A DNA stretch of 42,234 nucleotides from Myxococcales bacterium (GTDB lineage Bacteria; Myxococcota_A; Polyangia; Fen-1088). Below, piece by piece: positions 5,997 through 42,234 of the stretch. The notes beneath the pieces are model-generated. The model was not told the origin of the DNA and ran no database searches. It worked only from the letters and a program-made list of their open reading frames with translations. Position numbers and translations under genes: made by a program. The stretch covers positions 1 through 42,234 of the forward strand of contig JANXXE010000200.1 of assembly GCA_025350815.1 (NCBI GenBank), given 5' to 3'. Position 1 is the stretch's first letter, and the number at the start of each line of letters is the position of its first letter.

Positions 5997-7877
5997 TCAG
6001 CGCCGTTTCGGGCCGGGCTGCGAGCGATCGAGATCTTCGAAGTTGTCTTCTTTTTCGCGTTTGTAGAGCTCGGCTTCGCGTGCGAAAAAATCCGCCTCGA
6101 CGGCGTTGAATTCACCCGACGGGCGCCGCCCATGGCGCGCGCGTTCCTCGTCCGACGGGGGCACAGGCGTCGCCCGGCGCACCGATATCGGGCGCGACGG
6201 GGTCATGGGCGCGGGCGCCGCCGGCGTGGGGGCGGGTTCGGGCTTCACGAACGAGACGACTTCAGGCGCTGCCGGCGCCGCCGGGCGCTGGGCCGTGAAA
6301 GGAAGAAGCAGCGGGGCTGGCGTCGCGGGGGTGTTGGCCATCTCCAGTGCGTCCATCTCCGCCATCAGGCTGGGATCGATCTCGATGGAGCCGGTGCTGG
6401 CGCGCGAGGGACCCAGCGTCTCGGCCAGTGGCACCGGGGCGGCAGCGGGCGCGACCGGCGCAGGCAGGGGGATCGGGGTGGGAATTCGTATCGGGGTCGG
6501 TACCGGAACGGTCGGGATCGAGTCTTCGCTCGCGACCGCCACGGGGACGGGAGCCGACGGCTCGATTCCCTCACCCTCGGGTCCGAGGTCGACGACGAAG
6601 GAGGGGCCAGCGGCGACAGCCGGCTGCTTGCGTTTGGTGGCGCGAATCTCGCCGCTGACGTTCACGTCGACCGTGGCCACCGGGGCTTCGGGCTGTCGTT
6701 CGGGTGTCTGGGGCGCCGGCGTTTGGGCAGCGGGGGCCGCCGGCTTGTTGGCCGGGATGGTCCCCAGTTCGGAAGTCGTCTTGTCGCGACGTGCGCCCTT
6801 GCGCTTGCCACTTCCGGTCGACCGCTGCTCAGTGCGCACCGTCCCGTGCATCGCACCGCCACCCCGCGGCTGCTCAAGCCAGTCCTGGGCCCGCGGAACG
6901 CCGCCGGCAGGGGCAGGCGTCGCCGAGGATGGGCCGGCGGGCTGGCGATGAAGAACCCCGACCTCGGCCATGCGCGAGACGATACGAAGCGTGTCGAACA
7001 CGCGGAAAGGACTGTCCTCGATCACATCACCCAGCGAGCGCTGGCCGTCGAACAGTTTGACCACCGGCACGACCTCGGCCGGGATCAGATCGGTGGGATC
7101 GCCTGCCTTGGGGCTGGTCGCCTGGAAGATTGCCTGGACCGAACCAAGATCTCTGGTCGCGTGGGCAAAGTCCCGCAAGAAGCGCTCCGAGTCCTCGATG
7201 AGATCCTCGGCCTTCTTGCGGAATTGTCCGCCCCGCACCACCGAGCGGAATTTCAGGTCCAGTGCAGCCTCTTCCCACAGCAGGAGGTGATGCAGGGCCG
7301 GAAAGCCGTGCAGAGATCCGACCTCAGCCGAGGTGACTTCCCCTTGCCTGAAACGGATCTCGCCCCTGCGGTTCGCGCGTTCCACTTGAAGGATGCCCGA
7401 GGCACCAAGGCCCAGCATCGTCCGCACGAGGAAGAAAAGGCCGTAGTCAGACAGAGCGCCTTGCAGTTCCGTGTCACCCGCCGCGCCCCCGTCGCTGATT
7501 CGCAGCGCCACCAGGATGCGGCAGGCCGTGATCACGTCGCGGACGAAGACTGGACTTGGCAGAAAGTACAGGCCACCGACATCTTTGAGTTGCTCACGTG
7601 CGGGGTCAGCGCCGAGGACCAGGAAAGGTAATCGATCCGTAGATGGGTTGGCCCGCAGTCGCCGGACTTGCGCCAGGTCCTCCGCGAGGTCTTCGGGCGA
7701 CCCATCGCGCAGCGACACGACCAGGACCTGCGCGTCGCTGGTCTTGGCCGTTTCGGCGGCCTGTGCCAGGTCGCTCACGGAATCGACGCGGCAACCTTGT
7801 CCCTCGAACCCATAAAGAAGGACCTCTAGGCCCCTGGGGTCCGTATCGGCGATCAGAACTGCTGAAAGGCGAGCCAT
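5997..7877 (-). CDS. PATAN (DUF4388) protein with degenerate receiver domain
   Basis: 626 residues in three parts. Residues 5-125 resemble a response-regulator receiver: the acidic pair region reads IADTDPRG and the fold rhythm is kept. The phospho-acceptor position after beta-3 reads VLVVS55LRDG, with Ser instead of Asp, and the usual Lys near the end is missing (LPSPV). It is thus a pseudo-receiver. Residues 139-210 match the PATAN/DUF4388 domain (GLFFLVRTMLGLGASGILQVER, then GEIRFRQGEVTSAEVGSLHG). Residues 325-575 are a Pro/Ala linker, and the tail is a charged helix (FNAVEADFFAREAELYKR). PATAN proteins are thought to be scaffolds in bacterial signalling and motility. A TATACT -10-like box at 7909-7914 lies upstream. 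Confidence 0.8.
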   Translation of the reverse strand: MARLSAVLIADTDPRGLEVLLYGFEGQGCRVDSVSDLAQAAETAKTSDAQVLVVSLRDGSPEDLAEDLAQVRRLRANPSTDRLPFLVLGADPAREQLKDVGGLYFLPSPVFVRDVITACRILVALRISDGGAAGDTELQGALSDYGLFFLVRTMLGLGASGILQVERANRRGEIRFRQGEVTSAEVGSLHGFPALHHLLLWEEAALDLKFRSVVRGGQFRKKAEDLIEDSERFLRDFAHATRDLGSVQAIFQATSPKAGDPTDLIPAEVVPVVKLFDGQRSLGDVIEDSPFRVFDTLRIVSRMAEVGVLHRQPAGPSSATPAPAGGVPRAQDWLEQPRGGGAMHGTVRTEQRSTGSGKRKGARRDKTTSELGTIPANKPAAPAAQTPAPQTPERQPEAPVATVDVNVSGEIRATKRKQPAVAAGPSFVVDLGPEGEGIEPSAPVPVAVASEDSIPTVPVPTPIRIPTPIPLPAPVAPAAAPVPLAETLGPSRASTGSIEIDPSLMAEMDALEMANTPATPAPLLLPFTAQRPAAPAAPEVVSFVKPEPAPTPAAPAPMTPSRPISVRRATPVPPSDEERARHGRRPSGEFNAVEADFFAREAELYKREKEDNFEDLDRSQPGPKRR

Positions 7878-8141: not shown

Positions 8142-9479
8142 ATGCCTTCAAGCGCGCAGCCCATAACGTCCGAGCAGCAACTGGTGATGTATTTTCACGA
8201 GGCGGCCAAGCCTGCCCGTGCTTGGCGTGTGGGGATCGAGCAGGAGAAGATCGGGGTGCGGTCGGACGGCTCGCCGGTGCCCTACGACGGGCCCACGGGG
8301 ATTGCCGAGTTGCTGGGACGGTTGCGCGCCCGCGGACACACACCCTATCTGGAGGACGGGCACGTGATCGCCCTGTCGCGGGACGGGGCACAAATAACTC
8401 TTGAGCCCGGTGGCCAGGTTGAATTTTCCGGGCCGGCGGTCGCAACGGGCCGGGATGCCGCGGCGGCGTTGCGGCGCCACCTGCGCGATCTGCGCGAATG
8501 CAGCGCGGGTCTGGACATTCGATTCATCGCCGGGGGATTTCGGCCCTTCGGCTCGATTGACGATGTGCCATGGCTGCCGAAGCGCCGCTACAAGGTCATG
8601 CGCGCGTACCTACAGGGCGCAGGGCGGCGACTGGGTCACGAGATGATGAAACGAACCGCCACTGTGCAGGCCAACCTGGATTTCAAGGACGAGCAGGACG
8701 CGGTTGAGCGAATGCGCGCGGCGATGGGGATCACGTCGGTGGTAACGGCGTTGTTCGCGGCGTCGCCGATCAGCGAGGGGCGACCGAACGGCTTCAAGAG
8801 TTACCGGGCGGCGGTTTGGCTGGAGATGGACGACGCGCGCTGCGGTCTGCTGCCCTTTGTCTTCCAGTCGCAGTTTTCATTTGGCGACTACGTGCAGTGG
8901 GCCCTCGATGTGCCCATGTTTTTCGTCGTGCGCGACGGGCATTACCACGGCGGCGTGGACATGACCTTTCGGCGCTTCTTAGGTGAAGGCTGGCAGGGAC
9001 AGCCGGCGACCATCGCGGACTGGGAGATCCACCTGTCGACCTTGTTCCCGGAGGTCAGGCTCAAGCGCTACATCGAAGTGCGCGGCGCGGATGCGGCTCC
9101 GTTGCCGGTCACGGATGGGCTGGCGGCCCTGTGGCGCGGTCTGCTGGACGCCCCGGAGGCGCGCGCGGCTGCGTGGGGGCTGGTCGAGGGGGCGTCGATG
9201 GACGAGCGTGAGCGCGTGCGGCGTGAGGTGCCGCGGAGCGGACTGGCCACACGCCTTGGTGGGCGAGCCCTTTGGGAGATCGCCGTCGAACTGTGTCGGC
9301 TGGCCCGCGCGGGCTTGCAGCAACTGCCAGGCGGACGCGACGATCAGGCGTTGCTGGAACCCCTGATCGCCTACGCCGCGCAAGGGCGCTGTCCCGCGGA
9401 CGACATGCTGGCCGACTTCAGCCGCGCCGGTGGCGATCCGACGAAGCTGGTCGACGCCTGGGAAATCCCCGTCGACTGA
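8142..9479 (+). CDS. gshA: Glutamate-cysteine ligase, plant/proteobacterial type
   Basis: 445 residues from the ATG at 8142. It makes gamma-glutamylcysteine from Glu, Cys and ATP, the first step of glutathione synthesis. Signatures of the GCS2/plant-type class are WRVGIEQEKIGV near the start, ITLEPGGQVEFSG with the metal-binding acids, and MMKRTATVQANLDF. MDDARCGLLPF and HYHGGVDMTFRRFL follow in the ATP/Glu-binding half. An in-frame ATG at 8106 would add 12 residues. That stretch is AT-rich and lacks the GC-rich third positions of the gene, so I prefer 8142. No gshB is in the window. The gene converges on tRNA-Cys 7 bp downstream. Confidence 0.9.
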   Translation: MPSSAQPITSEQQLVMYFHEAAKPARAWRVGIEQEKIGVRSDGSPVPYDGPTGIAELLGRLRARGHTPYLEDGHVIALSRDGAQITLEPGGQVEFSGPAVATGRDAAAALRRHLRDLRECSAGLDIRFIAGGFRPFGSIDDVPWLPKRRYKVMRAYLQGAGRRLGHEMMKRTATVQANLDFKDEQDAVERMRAAMGITSVVTALFAASPISEGRPNGFKSYRAAVWLEMDDARCGLLPFVFQSQFSFGDYVQWALDVPMFFVVRDGHYHGGVDMTFRRFLGEGWQGQPATIADWEIHLSTLFPEVRLKRYIEVRGADAAPLPVTDGLAALWRGLLDAPEARAAAWGLVEGASMDERERVRREVPRSGLATRLGGRALWEIAVELCRLARAGLQQLPGGRDDQALLEPLIAYAAQGRCPADDMLADFSRAGGDPTKLVDAWEIPVD

Positions 9480-12809: not shown

Positions 12810-14191
12810 CTATCGTAGGCGACGACGTCGATGGCGCCCGGATCCACACGGGCTTCCGTCAGTCGCGCGGTGACGACGCTGGCGGTCGCCACCAGGGTGA
12901 TCGTCAGATTGTCGGCCGTGATGTGCTTTCCGATCGCGGCGGCCACCTGCTGGGGTGTTACGGCCCGAATGCGTTCTACGTACGTGTCGACAAAGTCAGC
13001 CGGCAGGCCTTCTAGTTCAGCGCCGAGGCGCGCGGCGAGACGGTGAGCGGGATCGTCCATGTCGGAGGCGAAGGTTCCGGCGAGGAAGTTCTGGAAGAAT
13101 CTTACCCGCGCGGCGGCAGGCGGCGTTCGGGCGAGATCTTTGTACAGCCGCAGCATCAGCTTGAGGGTGGTGACGGTCTTGTCCGCGCCCGTGAAGATCC
13201 AGCCCCGGAAGAAGCCCGGCCCGCGGCGGGGCACAAGGTCCATGTACGCGCCGTAGGCCAGGCCCCGCTTGGTCCGGGCCTCGTCCATCAGCGTCGAGCG
13301 CATGCCCCGTCCGCCGAAGCTGGACATGGCCACCGCGAGTGGCAGAAAGTCAGGGTCGGAAGCCGGCGGGCCCGCGTGCCCGAACATGATCTGTGTTTGC
13401 TTTCGGTCGGGTTTGTCGACGATCTGCACGCGCCAGCCAGGCCGGACGGGGGGCCGCGCGAGGTCGGGCGCCTTCGGTGGCGGGCCTTCGGGCAGCCCGG
13501 CAAAGGCGGCGGCAAGGACTTGTCGGAAGCCGTCCAGGGTCACGGCACCAGCGGCGGCGAAGACGAGATTGCCGCCCACGAAGGTCCGCCTGAACGCGGC
13601 TGCGACGTCGGGTCGACGAATGCGCGCCAGGCTTTTGGATGTGCCGTCGGCGGCTTTGCCGTAGGGGTGATCACCGTACAGGCGGTGGTCGAAGAAGCGC
13701 CCGCACAATGCGTGATCGTCGTTTCTCAGCTCGTCCAGTTGGGCGAGGATCTCGTCGCGCGTGCGGCCAAATTCGCCGGCGTCGAAGTCGGGTCGCACGA
13801 TGATGTCAGCGATGATCTTCAGGAAGGGCCGCAGGTTGCGCGCCAGGACCTGACCGACGAATCGAACGGAATCCGGTTCAACCAGGACGTCGAGCGACGC
13901 GCCCAGAGCGTCGATGGCCTCGTCGAGCTGATGCCGCGTTTTCCCGCCGGCGCTGCGGCGGGCAAGTTCGGCGGCGAAGTTGGACAGTCCATCCAAACCT
14001 CGCGGATCGCTGGCCGAACCGGTGCGCGCCGCGATGGCCACCTGGACGATCGGGATAGCCTGACTTTCCTCGACGATCACAAGCGAGCCGGCCGGGCCGG
14101 GCGCACGCGCGGTGGCGGCCAGACTGGCGGCGGGCAGGGGCAGCAGGGTAGTCAGGGTCATGGCGATGGTCACAAGGGGGCGCCGGTGCAT
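12803..14191 (-). CDS. M16-family peptidase-like protein, inactive partner
   Basis: 462 residues with a signal peptide at about 1-26 (VTIAMTLTTLLPLPAASLA). It has the two-domain M16 layout, but the zinc site is lost. Where an active enzyme has HxxEH, this one reads GLSN71FAA74E75L, so no metal ligand remains. The C-terminal half keeps the KRGLAYGAY segment, with an Arg and a Tyr that in M16B heterodimers come from the non-catalytic subunit and bind the substrate C-terminus. It follows the active M16 gene by 2 bp, so the two very likely form one periplasmic heterodimer. Confidence 0.88.
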   Translation of the reverse strand: MHRRPLVTIAMTLTTLLPLPAASLAATARAPGPAGSLVIVEESQAIPIVQVAIAARTGSASDPRGLDGLSNFAAELARRSAGGKTRHQLDEAIDALGASLDVLVEPDSVRFVGQVLARNLRPFLKIIADIIVRPDFDAGEFGRTRDEILAQLDELRNDDHALCGRFFDHRLYGDHPYGKAADGTSKSLARIRRPDVAAAFRRTFVGGNLVFAAAGAVTLDGFRQVLAAAFAGLPEGPPPKAPDLARPPVRPGWRVQIVDKPDRKQTQIMFGHAGPPASDPDFLPLAVAMSSFGGRGMRSTLMDEARTKRGLAYGAYMDLVPRRGPGFFRGWIFTGADKTVTTLKLMLRLYKDLARTPPAAARVRFFQNFLAGTFASDMDDPAHRLAARLGAELEGLPADFVDTYVERIRAVTPQQVAAAIGKHITADNLTITLVATASVVTARLTEARVDPGAIDVVAYDSY

Positions 14192-15684: not shown

Positions 15685-17262
15685 TCAGAACAGGGCCGTC
15701 AGGGTCAAGCTGAAGGCCTGGCCACGCTGCCGATACGTGCCTGCAGCGGTCGGCCGGGCGGCCCCAGCGAGGCGCGTGCGACACGCCGGGGATTCGAGAT
15801 TCCCGCCCGCCTGCTGGCACGCCGTCGCCGCGGCCGGGTCGAAGACCGAAGGGTTCGCGTCGAGGGCGGGCATCAAGGTCAGCGCGTACCCGGCGGCAAG
15901 AAGAAACGTCGAGCCCACGCGCAGCTGCGCCGCGAGCGCCGGTTCGATCTTGAAGCCGTCGACGGCACCCGGGTTCAGCGCCTGGGCGGGCACGGCCGAC
16001 GTCTCTGCGCGCAGCGTGGCCGCCAGGCGCAGACGGGGCAAGACGGCGACCGTCGCGCGCGCGCGCAGGTCAAGCGTGTCGCGAAAGCCGCGGTACAAAG
16101 TGATCTGGTCGGGCAATCCCGCGGGCCGCAGGCCGTCGGTCGCGGGGCCCACCACGCGCAAGAAGATCCTGTCGTGGCGCGACCAGGTCATCCAGCGCGC
16201 GATGCCTGTCAGTTCCACGCGCGGGGTCACGTGCGAGGTGACGCCCACCGTGAACACATCGGGCAGTCGGTAGGACAGATGACCGAACACGCATTCGCCC
16301 GGCTGGTTCACCGGGCACAGTGGACCGCGGGCGCTGTCACGCGGCGGGCGCAGGACGGACGTCTGGCGCGCGTCGATCTCGACCGACCCGCCGCCGTTAC
16401 CAAAGGGGCGACTGGCGTAGGCGAGGCCAAATTCCCAGCGGTCGCGCCGGTAATGGATGCCGGCCCCCACTGTGAATGACGGTGACGACGACACAGGACC
16501 CAGGCCCGAAGCCACCTTGTAGCGCGCCGCCGCGGCAGGGTTTTCGACGCCGCACGGCTGGCCCCCGCAATCGGCCGCCAAACCCGCGGGGCCCGCATCG
16601 GCAGCGGTGTCCTCGTCGAACACGACCTGTCCGGCGGAGAACAAGAAACCCGGGGCGACACCGACGCGCAGATCGTTTCCGATGCGGAAGGCCAGCGCCG
16701 GCACCAGCGCGACGTTGCGGATGTCGGCCTCCAGCAAGTGGAAGCGCGTGGCCTCCTGCGCGGCGGGATCGTCCGACACTTTCGTGCGTTGGGCGAACGG
16801 CATGTAGCTGGCCAGGGCGATCACGAAACGGCCGCCGAGGTCAGCGCCAATGCCCACGAAACTGCCGGGCCCCGGTGGCCAGTGCGCGGGTTGGTAGACG
16901 CCCCGTTCGGTGGCCGACGCGAAGCTGCGCGGGCCCCCTGGCTGGCCGGTGGCAGGATCGATGGCGGTCCGATCGATTGTCGTATTGACCAGGCGGCCAC
17001 CCGCGCTGACCATCGCCTGGTTGCCTTCGAGAAGACCGAGGGCCCCGGGGTTCCAGTACACGGCCGTGAGATCCCCGGTTGTGGGGCCACCCCATCCCAC
17101 GCCGCCCACCTGCGAATCGTCAAGCGGGCTGGCATCGACGCTGCGACTGAACGTGACCGACGCCGCCGTCCCCATGAGGAGGCCCAGCGCGGCGACCCAG
17201 AAGTGGTGGCCACGCGACGTCGGCGGGGACGGGGACGAGGACGACAAGCGGCGCGGCACCAA
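15685..17262 (-). CDS. FadL/OmpP1-like outer-membrane barrel protein
   Basis: 525 residues. An N-terminal export segment (FWVAALGLLMGTAASVTF) is followed by a sequence like the start of OmpP1/FadL proteins: VGWGGPTTGDLTAVYWNPGALG. The body alternates polar and hydrophobic residues in beta-strand style, and the chain ends in Phe (SLTLTALF), the usual signal for barrel assembly. FadL-type proteins move hydrophobic compounds across the outer membrane; the substrate here is unknown. Two Cys pairs (near CGGQPC, and CPVNQPGEC) suggest disulfide-stapled extracellular loops. The start is TTG at 17262, or GTG at 17259. It is preceded by a good promoter and followed 60 bp later by the M16 operon. Confidence 0.8.
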   Translation of the reverse strand: MVPRRLSSSSPSPPTSRGHHFWVAALGLLMGTAASVTFSRSVDASPLDDSQVGGVGWGGPTTGDLTAVYWNPGALGLLEGNQAMVSAGGRLVNTTIDRTAIDPATGQPGGPRSFASATERGVYQPAHWPPGPGSFVGIGADLGGRFVIALASYMPFAQRTKVSDDPAAQEATRFHLLEADIRNVALVPALAFRIGNDLRVGVAPGFLFSAGQVVFDEDTAADAGPAGLAADCGGQPCGVENPAAAARYKVASGLGPVSSSPSFTVGAGIHYRRDRWEFGLAYASRPFGNGGGSVEIDARQTSVLRPPRDSARGPLCPVNQPGECVFGHLSYRLPDVFTVGVTSHVTPRVELTGIARWMTWSRHDRIFLRVVGPATDGLRPAGLPDQITLYRGFRDTLDLRARATVAVLPRLRLAATLRAETSAVPAQALNPGAVDGFKIEPALAAQLRVGSTFLLAAGYALTLMPALDANPSVFDPAAATACQQAGGNLESPACRTRLAGAARPTAAGTYRQRGQAFSLTLTALF

Positions 17263-28194: not shown

Positions 28195-28767
28195 ATGTCT
28201 ACGTACGACACTTCCGACATCCGTAAGGGGCTCAAGATCATGATGGACGGAGCCCCGTACAACGTGGTCGAGTTTCAGTTCGTCAAGCCGGGCAAGGGCG
28301 CGGCCTTCACGCGCACGAAGATCAAGAACATGCTCACCGGGGCGGTTCTCGAGCGGAACTTCCGTTCCGGTGAAAAGTTCGAGCCGGCCAATGTCGAGAC
28401 GAAGACGATGCAGTACCTCTACAAAGAGGGCGATTCCTTCGTGTTCATGGACACGACGACCTACGACCAGGTGTCGATTCCGTCGGAGACCGTCGGCGAT
28501 TCCGCGAATTTCATGCCCGAAAACCTGGCCGTCGAGGTGCTGTTCTTCCGCGATCGCGCGGTCGGGATCACGCTGCCGAATTTCATCGAGCAGAAGGTTC
28601 TTGAGACCGAGCCGGGCTTCCGCGGCGACACCGCGACGGGCGTCAGCAAGCCTGCGAAGATCTCGACGGGCGCGTTCGTCAACGTTCCCCTGTTCATCAG
28701 CGTGGGCGACGTGATCAAGATCGATACCCGCTCGGGCGAGTACCTGGAGCGGGTGGGGCGCGCCTGA
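28195..28767 (+). CDS. efp: Elongation factor P
   Basis: 190 residues, the standard size with three beta-barrel domains. EF-P enters the ribosomal E site and restores peptide-bond formation at consecutive prolines. The loop that reaches the peptidyl-transferase centre reads FVKPGK34GAAF, with Lys34 the residue that EpmA beta-lysylates in Escherichia coli. The C-terminal domain signature GDVIKIDTRSGEYLERV is intact. The start at 28195 (MSTYDTSDIRKGL) matches the family; an earlier in-frame codon at 28156 does not. The gene directly precedes epmA, and they share bases at the stop. Confidence 0.97.
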   Translation: MSTYDTSDIRKGLKIMMDGAPYNVVEFQFVKPGKGAAFTRTKIKNMLTGAVLERNFRSGEKFEPANVETKTMQYLYKEGDSFVFMDTTTYDQVSIPSETVGDSANFMPENLAVEVLFFRDRAVGITLPNFIEQKVLETEPGFRGDTATGVSKPAKISTGAFVNVPLFISVGDVIKIDTRSGEYLERVGRA

Positions 28768-29750
28768 GCGCGGTCGTCACCCGCGACGACGCTGGCATAG
28801 ACGCCGCCCGGATCGCCGGTCGGCGGTCGGCCCTTGAGGCGCGGGCGGCCGTACGCCACGCCCTGCGCGCCTGGTTCGAACGTGAGGGCTTTCTTGAGGT
28901 GGAGACGCCGTCACGTGTTCCCTCGCCCGGGCAGGAAGTCCATCTCGAGGCCATCCCGGCGGGCAACGGTCGCTATCTAATCACCTCGCCCGAGTACCAC
29001 ATGAAGCGATTGGTCGCAGCCGGCCTGCCGCGCATCGTTCAGATGGGGCGCGCCTTTCGCGCCGAGGAAAGCGGGCCGCACCATGAATCCGAGTTCACAA
29101 TCATCGAATGGTACCGGGCCGGTGAGCCGCTGGACGCCGTGGCGCGCGACTGCGAGCAGATCTTGCGCGTGGCCTACGAGGCCGTCGGTGGTCACGCCCC
29201 GCCGCCACCCGAGCGCACGACGGTGATCGCGCTTTTCCGCCGGTGCGCCTCCATTGACCTGACCGGTCACGAGACAGCCGAAGAGTTGCGCGACAAGGCC
29301 TTGGCGGCTGGCATTGACGTGGGCTCGGCCACGGCGTGGGACGATATATTCTTCCAGATCTTCCTCGACCGCGTCGAGCCGCAGCTCGGCCAGGGTCGGC
29401 CGACCTTCGTATTCGACTGGCCCGCGCCTCTGGGCGCTCTGGCCCGACGCCAGACCGACAACCCCGCATTCGTCGAGCGATTCGAGCTCTACGCCGGCGG
29501 GCTTGAACTGGCGAATGCCTTCGGCGAACTGACCGATCCCGTCGAGCAGCGGGCCCGTTTTGTCGAGGAGACCGCCGCGCGGCGCGCACGCGGCAAGGCC
29601 ATCTACCCCATTGACGAAAAGCTGTTGGTGGCCTTGGGTCAGATGCCGCCGACCGCGGGGATCGCGCTGGGGTTCGACAGGCTCATGATGCTGGTCCTTG
29701 GCGCGAAGCAGATTCGTGACGTGCTCGCCTTCGCGGACGACGAAGTCTGA
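28764..29750 (+). CDS. epmA: EF-P--(R)-beta-lysine ligase EpmA (PoxA/GenX)
   Basis: A lysyl-tRNA-synthetase-like class II enzyme without an anticodon domain that attaches beta-lysine to EF-P. Key motifs are TSPEYHMKRL, FRAEESGPHHESEFTIIEWYR (motif 2) and GIALGFDRLMMLVLG (motif 3). Homology begins well before the first usual start codon, a GTG at 28899. The upstream frame encodes AVRHALRAWFEREGFLEVETP, the expected first helix. No ATG, GTG or TTG lies in that stretch. A CTG at 28764 overlaps the efp stop as CTGA and gives 328 residues, close to the 325 of E. coli EpmA. I take it as the likely start. EpmB is not in the window. Confidence 0.9.
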   Translation: MSAVVTRDDAGIDAARIAGRRSALEARAAVRHALRAWFEREGFLEVETPSRVPSPGQEVHLEAIPAGNGRYLITSPEYHMKRLVAAGLPRIVQMGRAFRAEESGPHHESEFTIIEWYRAGEPLDAVARDCEQILRVAYEAVGGHAPPPPERTTVIALFRRCASIDLTGHETAEELRDKALAAGIDVGSATAWDDIFFQIFLDRVEPQLGQGRPTFVFDWPAPLGALARRQTDNPAFVERFELYAGGLELANAFGELTDPVEQRARFVEETAARRARGKAIYPIDEKLLVALGQMPPTAGIALGFDRLMMLVLGAKQIRDVLAFADDEV

Positions 29751-40029: not shown

Positions 40030-42234
40030 ATGATCGGAAGCGGATTCGAACGTAGAGACCCGCCGGCTGATATTGGGGCCGTCCCCGGGGCGAAACTGCG
40101 CGTCTATGAGATCGCCAAGGATCTCGGCGTGCCTCACCGGGATCTGGTCGCAAAGATCAGGGCCCTCGGCATCGAGGTCGCCAACCACATGTCGAACCTC
40201 GACCCCAGCGACGCCGACCGCGTTCGACGGGCTGTCGACCGCGAGCGCCACGAAAGTCTGGTCGAGACGCGTCTCACCGACACGGTGATTCGCCGGCGCT
40301 CCCGGACGGCGCCCCCGGTCGCTGCGCCCCCCGAGGCCGCGGTTCCGTCGGCCCCTGTCGCCCGTTCAGCCGCCTCAGTCGGCGCGCCGGCTCCCGCACC
40401 CGTTTCGGCCCTGTCGCCCACCATCGAGTCCCCCCGTCGGGTTGTCGAGGTGCCCGAGGCGCCCGCACCCGAGCCCATATCCGCCAGGGATACGGCGCGC
40501 GAATCCGCGCCGAGCCCCGTGGTCAGGCAGCCCGAGCCCGAAGTGACACCAACGCGCGAATCCGCAGCCCCGGCGCCGGCCACTGAGCGGCGGGCCCCGG
40601 CGGTCGTCGCTGCCGCGCCGTCGGCCAGCCCTGGCCCGACGATCAAGCAGATCCCGTCGCCTGTGGTAACGGGTTCTGCCGCGACCGGCGCCTTCATCCA
40701 GCTTCCGGGCATGGGCGCGCGAGGCGAGGCGACCGGACCCAAGATCGAGATCAAGGATCGCGACGAAGAGTTGCGCAAGCTGGGCCGTGCCGGTCTGATG
40801 ACCCGTCAGCCCGCCGGACGGGGACCGTTTGGCCGCACGGGTTTCGGTGGTGGTGGCCCTGGCGGCAAGCCGGGCGGTCCGCCGCGCAAGCGTGTCGCTG
40901 CTGCCGGCAAGAAGCTGAAGCAAACGCAGATCACGACGCCCGCCGAGCACAAGCGGGTCATTCGCATGACCGAGGCCATCGCCGTGTCCGAACTGGCCCA
41001 GAGAATGGGCATCAAGGGCAACGAGGTCGTCAAGAAGCTGTGGGCTCTGGGCATGATGGGCGTCAACATCAACCAGAGCATCGATTTTGACACCGCGACA
41101 CTGATCGCGACCGAATTTGGCTATCAGATCGAATCGACGGCCTTCCGCGAGGAGACCGTTATCGCCGAAGGCGAGGAAGAGAATCCCGACGATCTGTCGC
41201 CGCGCGCCCCCGTGGTCACCATCATGGGCCACGTCGATCACGGGAAGACCTCGCTGCTGGACGCGATCCGCAAGGAAAACGTCGCTGGCGGTGAGGCCGG
41301 TGGCATCACGCAGCACATCGGTGCGTACAAGGTGAAGGCACCACAGGGCGAAGTGGTGTTCCTGGATACGCCCGGCCACGAGGCCTTCACGGCCATGCGT
41401 GCGCGTGGCGCCCAGATGACGGACATCGTCGTGCTGGTCGTCGCGGCCGACGACGGTCCGATGCCGCAGACGGTGGAAGCCATCAATCACGCCAAGGCGG
41501 CGGGCGTTCCCATCATGGTGGCTGTCAACAAGGTGGACAAGCCGGGCGCGAATCCGCAGCAGATTCGTCAGCGCCTGATGGAGCACGGTCTCATCTCGGA
41601 AGAATTCGGCGGCGAGACGATCTTCGTGGATGTGTCCGCCAAGACCAAGCAGGGCATCGACAAGCTGCTTGAAATGCTGGCGCTTCAGGCCGAGGTGCTT
41701 GAACTGCGCGCCAACGCCAAGAAACCCGGACGTGGTTATGTCGTCGAGGCGCGTCTCGATCGTTCACGTGGCGCGATCTCCACGATTCTCGTGGAAGAAG
41801 GCACCCTCAGGGTGGGCGATCTCCTGGTTGCCGGCGAGGCGTCTGGGAAGATCCGAGCCATGCTGGGCGACAACGGCCAGAACCTGGTCGAGGCGGGACC
41901 GTCGACGCCGGTCGAGGTTCTGGGCCTCGATGGCGTACCGGATGCAGGTGAAACCTTCAACGTCGTCACCGACGAGAAGGCGGCCAAGTCTCTGGTCGAA
42001 CACCGCCGCGAACAGCGCAAAAAGAAAGAGGCCTCCACGACCTCACGCGTTTCCCTCGAGAACATTCTCGAAAAGATTCGCGCCGGCGAGGTCAAGGAAG
42101 TCCGCATCGTTCTCAAATCCGACGTGCAGGGATCGGCCGAGGCGGTCTCCAACGCTCTCAAGGCCTTGTCCACGCCGACGGTGGGTGTGAACGTTATCTC
42201 GACGGGTGTTGGTGGCATCACCGAATCCGACGTG
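40030..42234 (+). CDS. infB: Translation initiation factor IF-2, 3' end outside window
   Basis: 735 codons are present and the frame is still open at the last base. GGGGAGA stands just before the ATG. Residues 19-72 form a first IF2N unit ([22 protein letters not shown]). Residues 95-290 are a long Ala/Pro/Glu linker ending in a Gly-rich patch. A second IF2N unit follows ([22 protein letters not shown]). The GTPase domain has G1 G400HVDHGKT407, G2 GGITQHIG, G3 DTPGHE, G4 NKVD and G5 SAK. Domain 2 and part of domain 3 follow. IF-2 brings formyl-Met-tRNA to the 30S subunit. Confidence 0.97.

Follow-up and report, generated by a model that had tools for sequence, protein, structure and literature searches.

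A candidate CTG start codon for epmA at the efp stop codon of a Myxococcales draft genome, and a family-wide CTG site before a recQ-like gene

The DNA that we analysed, hereafter the window, is a stretch of 42,234 nucleotides (contig C69) from the 4.51-Mb draft genome of a Myxococcales bacterium in 226 contigs, whose closest relatives with a name are metagenome genomes that carry the label Myxococcales, Deltaproteobacteria or Proteobacteria bacterium. On its forward strand lie efp, which encodes elongation factor P, and, in the -1 frame relative to it, epmA, which encodes a predicted EF-P lysine aminoacylase. The upstream neighbours of the pair are an aspartokinase-like gene and an ORF for a TPR protein, and epmA is followed by a small TPR ORF on the opposite strand and then by SecD, SecF and RecJ. 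Elsewhere the genome holds two EpmB/KamA-like genes (G000:C8:2125-3081 and G000:C146:19457-20458), both under the EpmB curated cut-off. The ORF table of the window contains ATGA, GTGA and TTGA overlaps (e.g., at 16476, 21433 and 5344), as the initial annotation had observed in proposing that epmA begins with the same geometry, at a CTG that overlaps the efp stop. The features of this junction are the following.

28195 to 28767, forward strand: efp, elongation factor P, 190 amino acids, stop codon TGA (NCBIfam TIGR00038, 256.7 bits)
28749 to 28757, forward strand: GCGGGTGGG, a weak anti-Shine-Dalgarno match inside the efp coding sequence, 6 nt before the CTG (duplex -6.4 kcal/mol)
28764 to 28767, forward strand: CTGA, in which the candidate CTG start overlaps the TGA stop of efp at 28765-28767 (from the sequence)
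28764 to 29750, forward strand: epmA read from the CTG, predicted EF-P lysine aminoacylase, 328 amino acids (TIGR00462, 332.3 bits; Foldseek)
28767 to 28811, forward strand: the 15 codons that separate CTG from ATC, coding-like in their usage (+4.5 bits)
28797 to 28799, forward strand: ATA, a rival non-canonical start at residue 12 (in-frame codon scan)
28812 to 28814, forward strand: ATC, a rival non-canonical start at residue 17 (aligned with the usual starts of relatives)
28899 to 28901, forward strand: GTG, the first usual start codon, encoding V46 of the VETP motif (in-frame codon scan)

The efp product matches the Pfam domains EFP_N, EFP and Elong-fact-P_C. Translation of epmA from the CTG gives the 328-residue product that had been proposed, and its match to TIGR00462 (residues 24-323 on profile positions 1-304) clears the curated cut-off of 286.9 bits; against the PRK09350 equivalog model NF006828, a narrower model named for elongation factor P--(R)-beta-lysine ligase, the protein scores 250.6 bits, below the curated cut-off of 264. 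The AF2 model of the 328 residues has a pLDDT of 94.2, with low confidence in the first 10 residues, and the model and its best Foldseek matches (GenX/YjeA) present a class II LysRS-like catalytic core alone. Its closest structures are E. coli GenX and Salmonella YjeA (3a5z, 3g1z and 3a5y; TM to query 0.82-0.86), the top match being E. coli GenX 3a5z at a TM of 0.84-0.85, and identity to the eight best Foldseek chains is 36-38%. The reading frame is intact and without internal stops, and these sequence and model comparisons mark epmA as an ordinary gene for an EF-P lysine aminoacylase, with beta-lysine aminoacylation of EF-P as its predicted function.

What sets the gene apart is its 5' end. 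Following a TGA at 28602, the epmA frame runs open from 28605 onward, with 159 open bases inside efp, and between 28605 and 28920 its only ATG, GTG or TTG is GTG 28899. The other near-cognate codons up to 28920 are CTG 28764, ATA 28797, ATC 28812 and CTG 28863; the first three precede the conserved EpmA helix, and CTG 28764 is the sole near-cognate in frame upstream of 28797 among the seven codons tested. The frame scan agrees with the initial annotation that the CTG overlaps the efp stop as CTGA and that no usual start precedes GTG 28899. The first helix likewise lies upstream of this GTG as had been described; the VETP motif, which had been placed upstream as well, does not, since the GTG itself encodes its V, residue 46.

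Translation from GTG 28899 would mean that EpmA is N-terminally truncated or that the gene is decaying, which we consider very improbable. This codon is the first usual start and is preceded by a fair anti-Shine-Dalgarno match (-6.2 kcal/mol), but a start there would delete both predicted N-terminal helices (residues 7-19 and 21-40 of the AF2 model) together with R35, F38 and E45, all of which lie upstream of the GTG and are invariant in an alignment of 27 EpmA stretches, several rows of which begin only near residue 20-35. Given the loss of helix 21-40 and of these residues, translation should begin upstream, and an enzyme started at 28899 should, as far as model and alignment can predict, not be normal. 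The codon signal between CTG and GTG, at +14.4 bits, also opposes this reading, as do the 17 other sampled genomes of the same family, in every one of which epmA has a usual start upstream of VETP, the motif at which the initial annotation had envisaged that relatives' proteins might begin. Frame scan, conserved residues and predicted helices together indicate that no usual start codon can serve epmA, and gene callers limited to ATG, GTG and TTG would, as had been anticipated, lose the first 45 residues, the invariant ones included.

Could epmA instead be read as an extension of efp, through a -1 frameshift near the efp end that produces a fusion protein? The 159 bases over which the epmA frame stays open inside efp would permit it, but over the final 48 bases of efp the epmA-frame codon signal is negative (-9.1 bits), no slippery heptamer was seen by eye, and in six relatives a stop closes the epmA frame either past the end of efp or a little ahead of the start; of all the readings that we weighed, this is the one to which we give the least credence, regarding it as extremely improbable.

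Codon usage, scored with a model built from this genome's genes, places the coding onset at 28758, two codons from CTG 28764, and assigns 118.8 bits to a start at the CTG, 113.0 at ATA, 112.9 at ATC and 104.4 at GTG. The +4.5 bits of the 15 codons between CTG and ATC are attained by 68% of stretches inside genes and by 5 of 13 gene starts, and by 0.4-0.5% of same-strand off-frame stretches, 1.0% of random stretches, 1.1% of shuffled ones and 6.5% of intergenic ones; in the three antisense frames of genes the figures are 33%, 11% and 0.3%. Pairing with the anti-Shine-Dalgarno sequence is stronger before the CTG than before ATA or ATC (-1.5 kcal/mol), on a loose measure by which 13 reference ORF starts span 0 to -11.8 kcal/mol. 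Coding signal and anti-Shine-Dalgarno pairing thus moderately favour CTG 28764 over ATA and ATC.

The case for ATC 28812 (or ATA 28797) comes from the relatives, near whose starts these codons lie: a usual start codon would have mutated to ATC, and translation would begin there still. Under ungapped anchoring, the sole usual starts of G001 (ATG), G007 (GTG) and G011 (GTG) and one of the two usual starts of G002 (a TTG) align with ATC 28812, and MAFFT also puts the starts of G001, G007 and G002 on residue 17. Set against this, the 15 codons upstream of ATC look coding, almost no anti-Shine-Dalgarno match precedes it, and it lies 45 nt past the efp stop, a distance that would presumably suit re-initiation less well, although some relatives start further away. 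We judge a start at ATC or ATA unlikely.

Across the family, every one of the 17 relatives has a usual start codon within window-equivalent residues 8-20, upstream of the 21-40 helix; in 12 of them no usual codon of the open frame comes earlier than the one at equivalent residues 8-17, and five (G002, G003, G006, G015 and G016) have usual-start options further upstream. An upstream stop falls at residue 4-13 in six (G007, G009, G010, G011, G012 and G014), whose frames open at residues 5-14, and from these stops and from the starts at 8-17 it follows that the first 10-16 residues are dispensable in the family. The comparison of this junction in related genomes, which the initial annotation had put forward as a check, went against the proposed geometry: when the start nearest the window range is taken, no usual start overlaps the efp stop in any of the 17 genomes, the usual starts lie nearer the first helix, and the distance from the first base of the efp stop to the start is 7-17 nt in seven relatives and 28-464 nt in ten (G015 has, in addition, an in-frame TTG 20 nt inside efp). 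The efp stop itself varies (TAG in 13, TGA in three, TAA in one), and the CTGA of the window arises because the last efp codon, GCC, precedes TGA. As the overlap is absent from all 17 relatives and is self-made by GCC-TGA, the geometry does not represent a design passed down in the family, and the CTG start is not conserved, each of the 17 having a usual start in its place. Of the proposal that epmA starts at the CTG, what survives is that the start lies upstream of 28899 and that CTG is the best non-canonical candidate by coding signal and anti-Shine-Dalgarno pairing; conservation of the 4-bp geometry does not. Two genomes of another family in the class (loci L015 and L017) have a longer EpmA N-terminus, together with a GTG that forms a GTGA overlap with the end of efp; the additional N-terminal part resembles, by eye, a small beta domain.

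The non-canonical epmA start is seen in one draft genome alone, and a base error in that draft may hide a usual start, either at 28764 or at a downstream near-start codon. The relatives, all with a usual start in the region, and the origin of the window in a 226-contig draft speak for such an error. The error rate of a draft assembly could compete with the rarity of switches to CUG. That rarity is documented in the counts of a study which finds switches to CUG at 2 of 61,358 AUG, 1 of 5,080 GUG and 1 of 2,468 UUG starts (PMC5622118). Yet an insertion or deletion alone would rescue no existing usual start: no ATG, GTG or TTG begins in any frame between 28754 and 28833, so a one-base indel brings none into frame, though it could create one, and a substitution or a new codon would be needed in a gene that is otherwise intact and without stops. 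We hold a base error to be improbable, while giving it more weight than any other alternative.

How often genes of this genome might start at CTG was assessed on 633 genes called by coding signal in 893 kb (61 stretches, window included), in 13 of which the signal leads the first usual start by 15 codons or more and by over 6 bits. Counting as a real overlap any TGA gene end that is followed, in the -1 frame, by a gene whose coding signal sets in within ten codons, we found 78, in which the base preceding TGA is A in 45, G in 20, C in eight and T in five; at the other 261 TGA ends it is C in 144, G in 55, A in 32 and T in 30. The eight C among 78 real overlaps, against 144 of 261 elsewhere, indicate that CTG is avoided at real overlaps. 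Seven of the eight CTGA overlaps have a usual start within 17 codons, and epmA alone lacks one. Shine-Dalgarno motifs in start zones are enriched before ATG (91/507) and slightly before GTG (37/436), and are not enriched before CTG (33/736, or 4.5%, against 6.8% for all codons); CTG as a general start in this genome is rejected on this ground. The initiator-tRNA pattern was matched once, at a locus that holds a single tRNA-Met gene, so a usual initiator tRNA is likely present.

Besides epmA, 12 genes were flagged, ten of which were scanned with Pfam (L163 and L167 lay outside the scan); six of these ten frames had no match. Several cases look to be explained by a later usual start: the inositol monophosphatase domain of L158 is found from residue 109, the ApaG domain of L156 begins at residue 148, and in L161 (FtsH) there is a TTG 17 codons on. 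L175, a further CTGA case, likewise has an ATG 17 codons on. On the minus strand of the window, at 40375-41763, a coding-like signal sets in right at an upstream stop, 59 codons ahead of the first usual start; this stretch has no match in the Pfam scan and is possibly an opposite-strand shadow. The MutS-like gene L165 (G000:C48, minus strand) has an in-frame CTG at 13795 after GAAGGAG, and is a weak candidate for a CTG start on sequence grounds: in 16 of 17 relatives an ATG stands nine codons after the position of the CTG, with CTG in none of those, and the 17th match stops short.

One flagged gene differs from these in its conservation, a helicase gene found through its coding signal and Pfam.

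CTG at 8635, stop at 6176, minus strand of contig C2 of the same genome (L119 in G000): recQ-like helicase gene

The 5' region of this gene carries AGGAGT-N5-CTG-AG[TC], present with identical spacing in all 18 family genomes, from seven genera (L188 and L193-L208 being the loci in the relatives); in the 1.70 million strand-bases of the sample of this genome, which includes the recQ-like gene, the motif occurs once. Conservation of the 5' region peaks at the Shine-Dalgarno and CTGAG, with averages of 0.50-0.51 upstream and 0.58-0.65 downstream. Six genomes (G000, G002, G005, G006, G010 and G014) lack an in-frame ATG, GTG or TTG anywhere from the upstream stop to a conserved motif of the PT[ILV]VI type; the first usual codon comes 18-30 codons after the CTG in G013, G015, G016 and G017, a TTG comes six codons after it in G003 and G008, and the remaining six have usual codons further upstream in frame. 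By eye, no upstream ORF ending at a TGA that overlaps the CTG looks common to the genera, so that this looks like initiation driven by the Shine-Dalgarno. Since 18 assemblies agree, a base error is no explanation here, and from the conserved motif we infer that ribosomes start at the recQ-like CTG, a site more solid and more interesting than the epmA CTG. Among 13 loci taken from other families, a single one (G021) shows a GTG with the same STE(S) residues behind it; no separate SD-CTG site is present in any of the 13 apart from one in which the CTG immediately precedes an ATG. After its CTG, the recQ-like gene of G002 (L207) carries a long Asp/Glu-rich run with repeats.

With CTG initiation made plausible in this lineage by the recQ-like site in all 18 genomes, CTG 28764 is in our view the likeliest start codon of epmA, an assignment in which our confidence, based on comparison of sequences, stands at about even. 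On that assignment, epmA would be translated from an efp-epmA message, and ribosomes finishing efp at the TGA would re-initiate at the CTG that overlaps it, using initiator tRNA; ahead of helix 21-40 of the catalytic domain, the first residues of the 328-residue product would serve as a leader. A weak start would keep EpmA scarce relative to EF-P, as might suit a catalyst. The use of the CTG, the re-initiation route and the purpose of a low output are all things that we infer. Somewhat more tentatively, with less than even confidence, we suggest that the family employs CUG in a few genes as a start that is weak by design, at the recQ-like site in 18 of 18 genomes and, through overlap with the efp stop, at epmA. 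Callers limited to ATG, GTG and TTG would misplace the recQ-like start in at least six genomes of the family. Our literature search found no paper on a CTG start codon under the stem Myxococc- and none on a bacterial CUG initiation codon with a Shine-Dalgarno, results that describe the search and carry no wider claim of absence.

The epmA of E. coli starts with ATG. With E. coli EpmA/GenX (PDB 3a5y, 3a5z) the protein shares its fold and the TIGR00462 family; here, efp adjoins epmA, and, in contrast to E. coli, a usual start is absent before the first helix. CUG is regarded as almost unused in bacteria, at 0.024% of starts and 0.86% of AUG output (PMC11497404), and the family-wide CUG site therefore offers a natural case in which to ask why a weak start is kept. 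Stop-start overlaps are widespread and commonly couple translation (PMC6728339); epmA would likewise overlap the upstream stop by 4 bp, as NTGA, but with CTG in place of a usual start and with an overlap that is not kept in the family. In S. aureus, conserved non-canonical starts with extended Shine-Dalgarno sequences are described for cvfC1 (AUU), ccpN (AUA, common to S. aureus and B. subtilis) and infC (AUA), and in poor medium such AUU and AUA starts reach about 10% of the output of AUG (PMC13009471). The recQ-like site resembles these starts in joining a strong Shine-Dalgarno to a weak codon and in being conserved, whereas the epmA CTG has no strong Shine-Dalgarno, is not conserved and differs in its codon, CUG. 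Seen beside these systems, epmA is an ordinary enzyme gene with a rare start codon, an unusual case of a known kind.
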